Assembly (NCBI GenBank): GCA_902825965.1
Contig: CADEDA010000004.1
Coordinates: 262,596-298,930 of the forward strand
DNA length: 36,335 nt
DNA from: an uncultured Gemmatimonadota bacterium
GTDB lineage: Bacteria > Gemmatimonadota > Gemmatimonadetes > Gemmatimonadales > Gemmatimonadaceae
Direction of reading: 5' to 3'
The position numbers and the translations under genes were made by a program. Below, in pieces: positions 32,351-36,335 of this stretch. The notes beneath the pieces are model-generated. The model was not told the DNA's origin and did no database searches. It saw nothing but the letters and a program-made list of their open reading frames with translations. Within the stretch, counting starts at the first letter, position 1. The number at the start of each line of letters is the position of its first letter.

Positions 32351-33523
32351 TCATCCGAACTGGGGGACGGGGCAGTCATTCAAATAGAAGGGATCGACTC
32401 GCAGCCGACCGACCGGAACGTACACGTCGCCGACTGGAACGCGCGACTCGCCGACCGGAATGCCTGAGCCTCCAACCGGAACGATCCCATGACCAACCGA
32501 GACGATCGGGCGACCGACCGGGTTGATCGCGTCACCGACCGGATTGATTGCGCGACGGACAGGGTTGGTTGCGCACCTGATCGCATTGTCCTCACGACGG
32601 ACCGGAACATTCGAGCCACGGACAGGAATGCGGAGGCTCCCGACTGGAATGTCCGAGCTCCCAACCGGAATGTTCGCGCTCCCAACCGGACTGTCGGAGG
32701 TTCCGATCGGGTTGTCGGCGCCACCGACCGGATTGTTCAGCCTCCCGACCGAGTTGTCCGGGGTGCCGACCGAATCGTCCACGCTCCCGACCGAGTTCTC
32801 CTCGCGGCCGACCGGCTTGATCGCGCTACCAACCGGATTGATCGCGCTACCAACCGGATTGATCGCGCTACCAACCGGAATGTTCGCGCAACCAACCGGA
32901 TTGATCGCGCTACCAACCGGAGTGTGAACGCGACGGAGCGGGTTGTGCGCCCTGCCGCGCGGATTGTGACGCTCACTGCGCGGACGGTGCAGCTCGTGGA
33001 CGTGGTGGCGCGCCGGCGTGTGCGCGTGCCGCCGTGGCGATCGCAGCACGCGCAGCGTCGTGCGGCACTTTCGCAAGGACGGATGCCGCTTCCGCACCGC
33101 CGCGCGCCACTTCTGCACCGCCGAACGGTCGTTCAACAGCGCCGCGCGCGAGTCCAGCAGGGTCCTTCGGGAGTGCAGCAGGGTCCTTCGCGAGTGCAAC
33201 GGGGTCCCGCGCGAGTCGAGCAGCGTCGCGCGCGCCTGACGTCGGTGCGATCGCCGGTGCAGCCGTCTCGATCGGCCTTCCGATACGGCCGTCCGTAGCG
33301 GACGCGCACGGGCGGGGCGCTCCGACAACTCTCGCGTGCACCCCCTTCTATAGGAAGAGCAGGGCCCTGGACGAGCGACAGCAGCAGTTGGTGGACTCGT
33401 TGCTGCGTGTGCAGGCGTTCCTCGACGTGCATCCGGATCGCCTAGAGCGAGGCTCGCCCTCACATCTCCTATGGGCAGCTGACCCGCCAAGGAACTCGCC
33501 GAATCACGCCACGAACGGAACAC
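32351..33523 (-). CDS. Possible heptapeptide-repeat protein (uncertain)
   Basis: One minus-strand frame is open over the whole 21-bp tract and would encode 390 residues with about 40 heptads, first of the type RRTLLHS and later VGSAINP. A hand tally over nine units (32643-32831) gives G or C at 51, 34 and 39 of 63 for the three phases. The richest phase is the third codon position of this frame, and the poorest is its second, as expected for a coding frame in a high-GC genome. A plus-strand frame shares the same wobble phase but is broken by TGA codons at 32925-32927 and 32967-32969. Against coding: the N-terminal 95 residues are arginine-rich and unlike a real protein, and no Met lies near the repeat start. 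The gene may begin later, or not exist. Confidence 0.28.
   Translation of the reverse strand: MFRSWRDSASSLAGQLPIGDVRASLALGDPDARRGTPAHAATSPPTAAVARPGPCSSYRRGCTRELSERPARARPLRTAVSEGRSRRLHRRSHRRQARATLLDSRGTPLHSRRTLLHSRRTLLDSRAALLNDRSAVQKWRAAVRKRHPSLRKCRTTLRVLRSPRRHAHTPARHHVHELHRPRSERHNPRGRAHNPLRRVHTPVGSAINPVGCANIPVGSAINPVGSAINPVGSAIKPVGREENSVGSVDDSVGTPDNSVGRLNNPVGGADNPIGTSDSPVGSANIPVGSSDIPVGSLRIPVRGSNVPVRREDNAIRCATNPVRRAINPVGDAINPVGRPIVSVGHGIVPVGGSGIPVGESRVPVGDVYVPVGRLRVDPFYLNDCPVPQFG
32412..33251. repeat. Tract of ~40 units of a 21-bp tandem repeat in unbroken phase
   Basis: Starting at 32412, units of exactly 21 bp follow each other with no insertion or deletion to about 33251. The first 27 units share the pattern ACCGGNNTGNTCNCGCTNCC (type A); three of them (32832, 32853, 32895) are identical and 32811 differs at one base. 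The middle units are diverged, and the last four or so (33147-33230) share CGCGAGTGCAGCAGGGTCCT (type B). Because 21 is a multiple of three and stops are rare, frames on both strands stay open and read as heptapeptide repeats. The tract follows the anti-sigma gene and has lower GC than the genes to its left. The 32230-32411 lead-in shows nothing clear. Confidence 0.9.
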
Positions 33524-33765
33524 CGCAGAGAAGTGGCTACAGCGACGGCACCATAGACGACGCGCGTCCCTACCAAGCGCTGTTCGTGGAGCACAGCAGG
33601 GCGGTGGATTCCCTCGCCCTGTTCAAGGCCGGGCGCGACGGGCCCGAGCGCCCGATCGGCGAGCGTGCGACGCAGGTGAGCTCACAAGTGGCGGCGCGTG
33701 CGAGGGTGAAGCTCCATCTGTCGAGTCGGGCGGGGGAGTGGGTGGAGGAAGCGGCGACGGCGTAG
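33337..33765 (+). pseudogene. Unrecognised ORF remnant after the repeat tract
   Basis: An open plus-strand stretch with no good start codon. Its first 40 residues (CTPFYRKSRALDERQQQLVDSLLRVQAFLDVHPDRLE) read like a genuine helical protein, with Leu/Val spacing and mostly G/C at third positions. The remainder (to VEEAATA, stop TAG 33763-33765) is less convincing. I do not recognise the family. It may be the surviving part of a decayed gene, possibly one that once carried the heptad repeats at its N-terminus. Bases 33766-33887 hold nothing I can name. Confidence 0.35.
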
Positions 33766-33887
33766 TGGGGGCGCGATGGAGGCGACGCGGGGGACGACCT
33801 GAGGGCCGTCGGTACCTGCACTGCTATGAGATGGCGTCGCGGCTTTGTGCGACGTGGCTATGCAGACCGGCCTCTCGTGGGAGTTCA

Positions 33888-34018
33888 GTGTAACGTGGGG
33901 CGGGGTGGCGGTTTGCGACGTCTTGCGGGGGGTTGGTACGCGCTGGAGATTGGGATATACGGACCTGTATAACAGCGCGGGATGGGTGTTAGGTAGGTCT
34001 GTCCAATACACGTTAGCC
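33888..34018 (+). other. Left boundary site of the cassette array (divergent attC or attI)
   Basis: The right end is the R' box GTTAGCC (34012-34018), preceded by CAATACAC much as attC sites are. Read as an attC, an imperfect R'' GTGTAAC (33888-33894) gives 131 bp, close to the 133-135 bp of the other sites, with an inner hairpin CGCGCT...TATAC/GTATA...AGCGCG. It lacks the GGTAGC and GCATTTTATG segments shared by the other sites. A second perfect GTTRRRY box, GTTAGGT, lies at 33988-33994, which would suit an attI. Which one it is cannot be decided here. Confidence 0.4.
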
Positions 34019-34632
34019 CGATTGACACGGATCTCAGTATGGGATGGTTGACTCGACGAACTATCGAAGTGGATTTCCGTGTCGACGTCGTGCTGTTTCG
34101 CGTAGAGGGACGCGAGTTTGACGTCACGCCGTCACTGCATGTCGCGTCCGGCGAGCGTCCTCGCCGTGAGCGCTTGCGTCGCGTTCACGCCATCGGCGAC
34201 CGCGATGGCTTTCCTCCTGAAGCGATCCACATCTATTTTCTCCAACAGACCGCGCTTCCACCGGATGTGGAGGACGCGAAGCAAGAGTACTTCGCCATTT
34301 GGTGGCGCCTGATCTTCGAGCTGATGGTGACAGGTAGTTCCCTGATTCCGCGAAAGCCTATCGTTCGCGTGTTCGTCCGGGCGCTCGCGAGCGATGCAAC
34401 GCGCGGCGAGACGGCTCAGATGATTAAGCGCGCGGCTCTCGAAGGAGGAGCGCACTCCGTGGACGTGACCGTGGAACGGGGAACAGCGCATCGGGCGCGC
34501 ACGGGCTAACGACGCTTGCTGCCGACAAGCGCAGGTGCGGTAGCGGTTGTGGGGCCGCCGCTCCACTTTATGGAAGGTCTGCAGCGGCCCCACAACCGCA
34601 TTTTATGGGAGCGCTTGCAGCAGAAGCACACG
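34013..34632 (+). mobile_element. Integron gene cassette 1 (620 bp)
   Basis: Bounded by the crossover points in the R' boxes at 34012/34013 and 34632/34633. It begins TTAGCC; its trailing attC has R'' GGCTAAC, the exact reverse complement of GTTAGCC. It carries one gene that ends inside that R'' box. Confidence 0.88.
34039..34509 (+). CDS. Cassette 1 protein, unknown; faint MreB-like resemblance
   Basis: A 156-residue protein filling cassette 1, starting 26 bases after the crossover point. Its stop TAA lies inside the R'' box GGCTAAC of the following attC, a tight fit typical of cassettes. There is no signal peptide. The order IEVDFRVDVVLFRVEGREFDVTPSLHVASG, then RLRRVHAIGD, then RKPIVRVFVRALASDATRGETAQMIKRAALEGGAHSVDV recalls the N-terminal part of MreB-like proteins (xPRVVVxVPxxxTxxExxAxxxAxxxAGAxxV). 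From memory, small proteins labelled 'rod shape-determining' do occur in cassettes. This is weak pattern similarity, not an identification. GC content is lower than in the chromosomal genes. Confidence 0.8.
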   Translation: MGWLTRRTIEVDFRVDVVLFRVEGREFDVTPSLHVASGERPRRERLRRVHAIGDRDGFPPEAIHIYFLQQTALPPDVEDAKQEYFAIWWRLIFELMVTGSSLIPRKPIVRVFVRALASDATRGETAQMIKRAALEGGAHSVDVTVERGTAHRARTG

Positions 34633-34638
34633 TTAGCT
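34504..34638 (+). other. attC site A (135 bp)
   Basis: R'' GGCTAAC (34504-34510) and R' GTTAGCT (34632-34638) bound an imperfect palindrome. The central arms are GCGGTTGTGGGGCCGC (34543-34558) and GCGGCCCCACAACCGC (34584-34599), a perfect 16-bp match. Outer arms pair CGCTTGCTGCC with the GCAGCAGAAGC side. Crossover is expected between G34632 and T34633. The conserved segment GCATTTTATG lies at 34598-34607. Confidence 0.92.
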
Positions 34639-35664
34639 GGACCATCCGGCCTCCATCGTACTCATGGACACGCACGTCTGGCTTCCGCCTTCGGATTCCT
34701 CGCAGCAGCGTGCTCTCGCACATATGGCAGCGCGCAGCCGGGGTGGTCCGCTTGATCCTACCGTACGGGTAACGATCAATTTTCATCCCGCCAGACTGCA
34801 CCAAGGCGCCCCACTGCTTCGGTCCCTTGCGAGAGACGGGGATTACCGCTCGCAGTTCGAGACGGGCACCGGCAATGGAAGCCTCTCGGCATTTCCGGGT
34901 GGCGAGCGCTGGCAGTGGGAGACTCGGCTCTTCGGCGGTGCCTATGACGCCGCGTCCGCCAACGAGCGTCCGAAAGTGGGCGCGCTCAACTTTCGTCGCC
35001 GCGCTACCGGAGCGGCCCCGCGGTACGGTTCTGCCTATCTGCGGCTTCGGCCAGAGGTCGCGCCGCGCTGCACATTCTGCTTTCCTGATTCCTGCTTCGA
35101 GCCGTCCGCATTCGGTACGGCGTCTCGCATGAGTCTCATCGACCTCGCCGCAGGGGAGCAGCGGGACCGCCTCGACGACTACGTCGAAACGCACGTGCAT
35201 GGTCCCGTGCGCCTTGCTGTTGACGTCGAGGCGCTGGTCCTCGATCCCTGCTTCCGCGATACCGAGGTCGAAGAGCTCGCACGCCAACTCCCCTGTCCTC
35301 TTGAATGGCATCCGGGCTTTCGGCTTCATGTCGACGAGATGGCGCAACATCCGAGCTATCGTGGTCCGGAGTACGTGGTGCTCGGACGATCGGTGGCCGT
35401 CGATGGATGGCTCACGCCCGCCATCCTTGAAGTGGCGGTGCGTTCGGAACGCCATCACCCACAGGACCTCAAGAAGGTCTGGCACTACCTGGCTCGCTTT
35501 GGTGACCAATCGCCAGAGTGAGATCGCATCGCGGCCAGCTAACGGCAGTTGGTGACCGACGGCCGTCTAGGGTAGCAGGTGGGCGGCCGCGCCTTGTCGT
35601 ACCTTTCGGTACGGCGCGGCCGCCCACCTGCATTTTATGAAAGCGGCCGCGGCACAACTTGACG
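34633..35664 (+). mobile_element. Integron gene cassette 2 (1032 bp)
   Basis: Begins TTAGCT after the crossover point; its trailing attC has R'' AGCTAAC, the exact reverse complement of GTTAGCT. It carries the DUF3626 gene. Confidence 0.9.
34664..35521 (+). CDS. DUF3626 family protein (cassette 2)
   Basis: A 285-residue protein of the DUF3626 family. Diagnostic stretches are VRVTINFHPARLHQGAPLLRSLARDGDYRSQFETGTGNGSL, FPGGERWQWETRLFGGAYDAA, RPKVGALNF and APRYGSAYLRLRPEVAPRCTF(C)FPDS. The C-terminal part (VETHVHGPVRLAVDVEALVLDPCFRDTEVEELA, then EWHPGFRLHVDEM) contains His/Asp/Glu residues. Function of the family is not known to me; from memory it is recurrent in integron cassettes of soil and marine bacteria. 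The gene starts 31 bases after the crossover point and ends 15 bases before the R'' box. No promoter is seen, so expression depends on upstream cassettes. Confidence 0.85.
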   Translation: MDTHVWLPPSDSSQQRALAHMAARSRGGPLDPTVRVTINFHPARLHQGAPLLRSLARDGDYRSQFETGTGNGSLSAFPGGERWQWETRLFGGAYDAASANERPKVGALNFRRRATGAAPRYGSAYLRLRPEVAPRCTFCFPDSCFEPSAFGTASRMSLIDLAAGEQRDRLDDYVETHVHGPVRLAVDVEALVLDPCFRDTEVEELARQLPCPLEWHPGFRLHVDEMAQHPSYRGPEYVVLGRSVAVDGWLTPAILEVAVRSERHHPQDLKKVWHYLARFGDQSPE

Positions 35665-35670
35665 TTAGGG
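35537..35670 (+). other. attC site B (134 bp)
   Basis: R'' AGCTAAC (35537-35543) with L'' around GCAGTTGGTG; L' GCACAACTTGAC and R' GTTAGGG (35664-35670). The central stem is a perfect 19-bp match (35575-35593 with 35613-35631), with a smaller GTACC-TTTC-GGTAC hairpin in its loop. GCATTTTATG at 35630-35639 is shared with site A. The ATG inside it is in frame with the cassette 3 gene. Confidence 0.94.
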
Positions 35671-36284
35671 CGAGCAGACCGAGATCTATGCTAGGCCAGC
35701 ATATTCTGAGATTCGAGCTTCCGATCGCTGCCGCGGAGTTCGAGCGTCGGCTTGAGGCGCTCTTGGCCAGGCCGACGGGACGGATGTACTCCGGTGAGCT
35801 TTCGTTCACCGGCCGGGTCGCGAGCGGTCTCGTCCAGATGCGCGTGCGCCGACTATCACGCCAAGCACTACGCCTGCGGGTCGAAGGCAGTTACGAGGCG
35901 ACGTCAACCGGCGTCGCGTTTCGTGGGAGGACGCTGCCTTCTACGGAGACCTACCTCCCTCTCGCGCTCTTGCTCGCCGCGCCGATCTCTCTGTCTTTCG
36001 GCAGCCCGGCGTCGCTCGCCCGGAATGGTTGGATCGGACTCGGCATCTTCGTCCTTCTCGCGGTCGCGTTGCACTTGTACCTGCTCGTGCGCTTGGGCGA
36101 GCGCGTCGAGCGTGAGTTGCTTGAGTTAGCGCAGTAGGCGGAGAACTGTGCGCGCCGCCCTAACGACAGTTGGTGCTGATGGCCGTCTGGGGTAGCGGGT
36201 TGGCGGCCCCGGCCTCATCGTACTTCAGGGTCGGCCGTGGCCGCCAACCCGCAATTATTGGATCGGCCACAGCACAACTCGACG
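35665..36284 (+). mobile_element. Integron gene cassette 3 (620 bp)
   Basis: Begins TTAGGG; its trailing attC has R'' CCCTAAC, the exact reverse complement of GTTAGGG. It carries a small membrane protein. Confidence 0.9.
35688..36137 (+). CDS. Cassette 3 protein: small membrane protein of unknown function
   Basis: A 149-residue protein starting at the ATG 35688, 24 bases inside cassette 3. An in-frame ATG at 35637 lies within the preceding attC and would add 17 residues across the recombination junction; the internal start is preferred because it lies wholly in the cassette. The N-terminal half (LRFELPIAAAEFERRLEALLARPTGRMYSGELSFTGRV, VRRLSRQALRLRVEGSYEA) is a soluble, beta-rich domain. The C-terminal half has two spans, LPLALLLAAPISLSF and WIGLGIFVLLAVALHLYLLVRL, followed by a charged tail. 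No family recognised. It may report or attach to the inner membrane. Confidence 0.78.
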   Translation: MLGQHILRFELPIAAAEFERRLEALLARPTGRMYSGELSFTGRVASGLVQMRVRRLSRQALRLRVEGSYEATSTGVAFRGRTLPSTETYLPLALLLAAPISLSFGSPASLARNGWIGLGIFVLLAVALHLYLLVRLGERVERELLELAQ

Positions 36285-36290
36285 TTATGG
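36158..36290 (+). other. attC site C (133 bp)
   Basis: R'' CCCTAAC (36158-36164), L'' ACAGTTGGTGC, L' GCACAACTCGAC and R' GTTATGG (36284-36290). The central stem is GCGGGTTGGCGGCC (36195-36208) with GGCCGCCAACCCGC (36239-36252), a perfect 14-bp match. Its left half is close in sequence to site B (AGTTGGTG...GGCCGTCT.GGGTAGC.GGT.GGCGGCC). Confidence 0.94.
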
Positions 36291-36335
36291 CGACTTCGAG
36301 GTATCGCAATTGGACACGCGTGAACGCTGCCCTGG
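36285..36335 (+). mobile_element. Integron gene cassette 4, start only
   Basis: The first 51 bases of a further cassette, beginning TTATGG directly after the crossover point. The window ends inside it, so its own attC cannot be compared. The array therefore continues to the right. Confidence 0.75.
36287..36335 (+). CDS. Possible start of the cassette 4 gene, truncated by the window
   Basis: An ATG (36287-36289) lies inside the R' box GTTATGG, two bases after the crossover point, and reads MATSRYRNWTRVNAAL to the window edge without a stop. If this is the true start, the gene has no leader of its own and its ribosome-binding region comes from the preceding cassette. A later start outside the window is equally possible. 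Confidence 0.35.
   Translation, partial: MATSRYRNWTRVNAAL

Follow-up and report, generated by a model that had tools for sequence, protein, structure and literature searches.

The stretch of DNA analysed here (36,335 nucleotides, hereafter the window; positions 262596-298930 of contig C4 in genome G000, a draft of 4.07 Mb in 73 contigs) most probably holds the attI-proximal part of a satellite array that lacks an integrase, belongs to a multi-array chromosomal integron and is served in trans by a remote integrase, IntI, encoded on contig C32. As judged from sequence, the array consists of true cassettes behind an attI-like head, with no intI within 12 kb upstream, one intI on C32 and a layout that recurs in relatives. 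The C32 IntI would act on these sites, and attI function of the array head is suggested by its position, its conserved core and the correspondence between R'' boxes and cassette starts (the R'' rule). The matching cassette ends, to which a first-pass annotation of this DNA had drawn attention, are strong proof of an integron array but are not surprising in themselves, being textbook integron biology. More interesting, and absent from that annotation, is the lack of a nearby integrase at an array that begins with an attI-like site of its own, together with the apparent service of several such sites by one integrase elsewhere in the genome.

At the end of the window, three attC sites bound three cassettes, all on the plus strand. 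Cassette 1 (34013..34632, 620 bp) starts with TTAGCC, which pairs with the R'' box GGCTAAC of attC1 (34504..34638, 135 bp; R' GTTAGCT), and carries a gene of 156 aa (34039..34509) without Pfam or PADLOC match. Cassette 2 (34633..35664, 1032 bp), whose start TTAGCT pairs with the R'' box AGCTAAC of attC2 (35537..35670, 134 bp; R' GTTAGGG), encodes a DUF3626 protein of 285 aa (PF12294; 34664..35521; Pfam E-value 2.9e-63), the sole clue to function among the window cassette genes. Cassette 3 (35665..36284, 620 bp) starts with TTAGGG, pairs with the R'' box CCCTAAC of attC3 (36158..36290, 133 bp; R' GTTATGG) and contains a gene of 149 aa (35688..36137), again without Pfam or PADLOC match. The start of a fourth cassette (36285..36335) is interrupted by the end of the contig at window base 36335, the window and the contig ending together (298930/298930). 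The continuation of the array past the window, claimed earlier, is therefore presumed from attC3 and the start of cassette 4.

The identity of the array is supported by attC model scores, folds and R'' matches. A covariance model (R3), trained on 12 attC sites from other genomes with the window left out, scored the three window sites at 145.4, 124.0 and 110.2 bits in their order along the array (E-values from 7e-40 to 1e-29), with no other match above 12.2 bits across the window. The first-pass annotation had proposed this check and had named failure of all three sites to score as refuting; with scores of 110-145 bits that failure did not occur. In three congeners without intI, a related covariance model, for which window sites were part of the training set, found no match; attC models of this kind are therefore not promiscuous. 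The attC bottom strands fold as single-stranded DNA far better than shuffled sequences (z = -8.84, -9.84 and -9.08 for attC1, attC2 and attC3, respectively), and the attC sites within arrays are mutually similar, with a mean column identity of 77%. These sites use GTTANNN, so that a search with the classical R box GTTRRRY proved too restrictive, and Rfam at gathering scores gave no matches in the window. Site lengths of 133-135 bp, one plus-strand gene per cassette and a GC content lower than that of the chromosome had also been reported previously, and all agree with our measurements, GC being 63% at 34001-36000 versus approximately 68-74% elsewhere in the window up to 32000. With three attC sites (at least two are needed) and no intI homology within 12 kb upstream, the downstream side being off the contig, the array falls within the definition of a CALIN. 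Compared with a complete integron, it has no adjacent intI on C4, and it has a putative attI at its head.

For each of the three window cassettes, the R'' box reads as the exact reverse complement of a G followed by the first six bases of its own cassette, as claimed in the first-pass annotation, and in none of the three does it match the R' of its own linear attC. In a test set of 192 cassettes from five genomes, for which the three variable bases were compared, R'' agreed with its own cassette start at all three bases in 186 cases, against a mean of 22.9 and a maximum of 39 matches in 5000 shuffled R''/start pairings. In the 163 discriminating cases, where the cassette start differs from the R' of the site, the start was matched in 159 and the own R' in none. 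As R'' follows the cassette start, the data fit the prediction of circular cassettes, in which R''/start complementarity is textbook integron behaviour. The match could conceivably be fortuitous, the core sequence being constrained and only three of the seven bases variable; however, 186 matches of 192 versus 22.9 expected, together with the score of 159 to 0 in the 163 discriminating cases, leave this explanation with virtually no credibility. The R'' of the first attC also places the cassette start on the attI core in all 19 testable array heads, 13 of which are located away from intI. Confirmed in this way by the R'' rule, the 19 testable attI appear to be real insertion points. The rule also provides a simple attI finder, in which the R'' of the first attC is read and the upstream region is searched for GTTA followed by the predicted three bases. 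By comparison, attI sites outside class 1 go undetected by IntegronFinder (PMC9024848).

At the head of the window array, the R'' of attC1 predicts GTTAGCC, the sole copy of which within 3.5 kb upstream is the core of an attI-like element (33791..34015, plus strand). This core, CCAATACACGTTA, occupies positions 34003-34015 with the crossover between G34012 and T34013, and the first window cassette begins inside it. The 4.07 Mb genome contains four exact copies of this 13-mer (on C4, C16, C26 and C32), each at an array head, and a one-mismatch search over the genome gave no additional site; intI lies beside only one of these four heads, that on C32. The heads on C4 and C26 are 83.6% identical over 225 bp, with homology stopping at the core/crossover, and those on C16 and C32 are 73% identical over 98 bp, with homology stopping at the crossover. 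A diverged fifth attI copy is located on C33. No hairpin was detected in the attI-like region when its folding was compared with that of shuffled sequences (z = 0.31 and -1.39), and a search for a Pc promoter at 33700-34100 gave no sigma-70-type match, in a bacterial group whose promoters may differ. On C17, the R'' box of the first attC points to a head at AGTATACGTTAGCC (L021:13558, minus strand), which is possibly a diverged attI.

The IntI encoded on C32 scores 412.7 bits against the integron-specific profile TIGR02249 (family cut-off 265), matches the tyrosine-recombinase domain PF00589 and is the sole match above the family cut-off in the 73-contig draft. On C32 the attI is located downstream of intI, and the nearest named relative of this IntI is from a Gemmatimonadetes MAG (63%), which makes it likely that the host belongs to Gemmatimonadota. 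In addition to the lack of intI homology upstream of the C4 array, no intI remnants were found beside satellite arrays in about 5-12 kb upstream of the heads tested. Because the window genome is a draft, a second, unassembled intI in the window strain is conceivable, a concern that the single-contig relative G011 answers by analogy.

Several repetitive elements were observed in the vicinity of these arrays. Window positions 32395-33240 contain approximately 0.9 kb of 21-bp tandem repeats, relatives of which are present only on C16, C17, C18 and C32 of the window genome, where each precedes intI or attC sites by a few kb. This region shows no clear coding signal; it was considered as a part of the integron platform, but it is absent from the congener loci compared. 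Matching 100-bp palindromes adjoin two copies of the repeat region (L021:16514-16613 and L030:8443-8542). Far upstream of intI on C32, tandem repeats with a period of about 381 nt extend over approximately 10 kb and may represent a giant repetitive gene.

The same layout is found in relatives of the window genome. The attI model (R2), built from the four window-genome sites, was weak or silent in most congeners, and a 13-base pattern combined with the R'' rule was therefore used instead. The pattern MYAATHCACGTTA gave 20 matches in 17 same-genus genomes, where its reversed control gave none; across 148 family genomes the reversed control matched twice. In G011, which is assembled as a single contig, one intI is accompanied by three attI-headed arrays at 1.34, 2.33 and 3.12 Mb; in G004 the number of attI-headed arrays is five, again with one intI. 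Further satellites were identified in G015 and G009 (one each) and in G044 from a different genus (two). The satellites at 3.12 Mb in G011 and at 23 kb in G004 have more than 6 kb of flank in common, and those at 1.34 Mb in G011 and on C13 in G002 about 7.9 kb. These two satellite loci are thus orthologous between species, with intI absent at both members of each pair, and the common flanks imply that the loci predate those species. In the 30 bp that precede the core on its left, identity between paralogous attI within a genome is 0.87 in G011 and 0.73 in G004, versus 0.23 and 0.37, near chance, between attI at orthologous loci. Three G004 satellites have approximately 190-257 bp in common at 86-94% identity. 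At the two orthologous loci, attI apparently tracks the genome rather than the locus, and the likeness of attI within a genome could result from copying between sites and/or from shared selection by one IntI.

Comparison of cassettes points to traffic between arrays and between species. A 721-bp cassette of G011 is present with 100% identity in the intI array and at two positions of the 3.12 Mb array. In G004, two intI-less arrays have a 473-bp cassette in common at 100% identity, and a 269-bp cassette of the intI array recurs with 100% identity in an array without intI. Two cassettes, of 931 bp (L241:2930-3860 and L249:8890-9820) and 667 bp, occur with 100% identity in both G004 and G011, in which flanks at common loci are only approximately 75-80% identical, and for the 931-bp cassette this disparity suggests a recent transfer between species. 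As identical whole cassettes sit beside different left neighbours, the comparison suggests that cassettes are mobile as exact units. In the window genome, a 55-base stretch at the left edge of cassette 3 (35660..35714, plus strand) is identical to the end of C32, which carries the intI-adjacent array. This is the mark of an assembly fork: in the sampled DNA, cassette 3 is preceded by two different neighbours, which may reflect either two copies of the cassette or strain variation. It is also conceivable that identical cassettes were obtained from outside donors or through an earlier integrase, rather than by present action in trans.

According to the standard view of CALIN origin (PMC8618304; PMC9024848), the satellites would be degraded integrons that lost their intI and are now inert, and clearly decayed sites are indeed present in the window genome, on C2, C18 and C33, where attC scores are low. 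This origin is nevertheless unlikely, as the satellite heads tested showed no trace of intI within approximately 5-12 kb upstream, 13 heads have an intact attI core, the cassettes that are 100% identical across arrays and species argue for recent traffic, and neither of the two orthologous satellite loci has intI in either species. Insertion of cassettes off target, at genomic sites other than attI (attG sites), although described for integrons (PMC12444791; PMC8618304), is a very improbable source of these arrays, since independent sites would have in common neither 30 to 257 bp of upstream homology ending at the crossover nor an exact 13-base core that is found at four heads and nowhere else in the genome. 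For the arrays on C4, C16, C26 and C32 and for the G004 satellites, an attG origin is refuted by the common attI-like element at their heads; arrays without recognisable attI, such as that on C37, could have originated in this way.

It might also be argued that all arrays are parts of one integron split by draft assembly, given that C4, C32 and C41 end inside arrays and that C32 and C4 have a 55-base end overlap in common. However, each attI-like head is joined on the same contig to its own non-array flank (window 1-33790; C16; C26), and the one-contig genome has three separate attI-headed arrays hundreds of kb apart, so that we see only a slim chance for this explanation.

Integrons are already known in Gemmatimonadota (PMC8618304), and integrons typically possess one initial attachment site near the integrase (PMC9024848). 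The system described here resembles sedentary chromosomal integrons (Vibrio-type superintegrons) in having intI, attI, long arrays, mutually similar attC and one gene per cassette; however, those are described as having a single attI next to intI (PMC9024848), whereas several attI-headed arrays are located away from intI here. With CALINs it shares attC arrays without neighbouring intI, and mobilisation of CALIN cassettes in trans has already been proposed (PMC9668308; PMC12444791). The definition of CALINs ignores attI, whereas each satellite here has an identifiable attI and some of the loci are conserved between species. In Treponema and archaeal integrons, intI is transcribed towards attI and attI lies downstream of intI, as on C32; the descriptions consulted mention no satellite attI. 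Delta-attI-type gene cassettes of mobile integrons (PMC12901181) similarly have an attI sequence away from its usual intI-adjacent place, but their attI is inside a cassette, whereas here it heads whole chromosomal arrays.

Under the favoured interpretation, an integrase-less satellite array served in trans, the C32 IntI would recognise bottom-strand single-stranded attC hairpins and excise cassettes, the resulting circles would be inserted in trans by IntI at any of several dispersed attI copies, and cassettes would thereby circulate between arrays. A more general model, a distributed integron in which one trans integrase serves several permanent attI docking stations around the chromosome and copying or shared selection maintains the likeness of the attI in one genome, has in our opinion an even chance of being correct. 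The new part of these observations is the existence of attI-headed arrays without integrase, the end-matching rule being already known, and no description of attI copies heading integrase-less arrays was found in the open-access literature. CALINs are commonly regarded either as degraded integrons or as products of off-target insertion. Should many of them possess an attI and be served in trans, a genome could accommodate several independently placed sites for cassette expression and storage under one enzyme, and the origin of CALINs would become testable.
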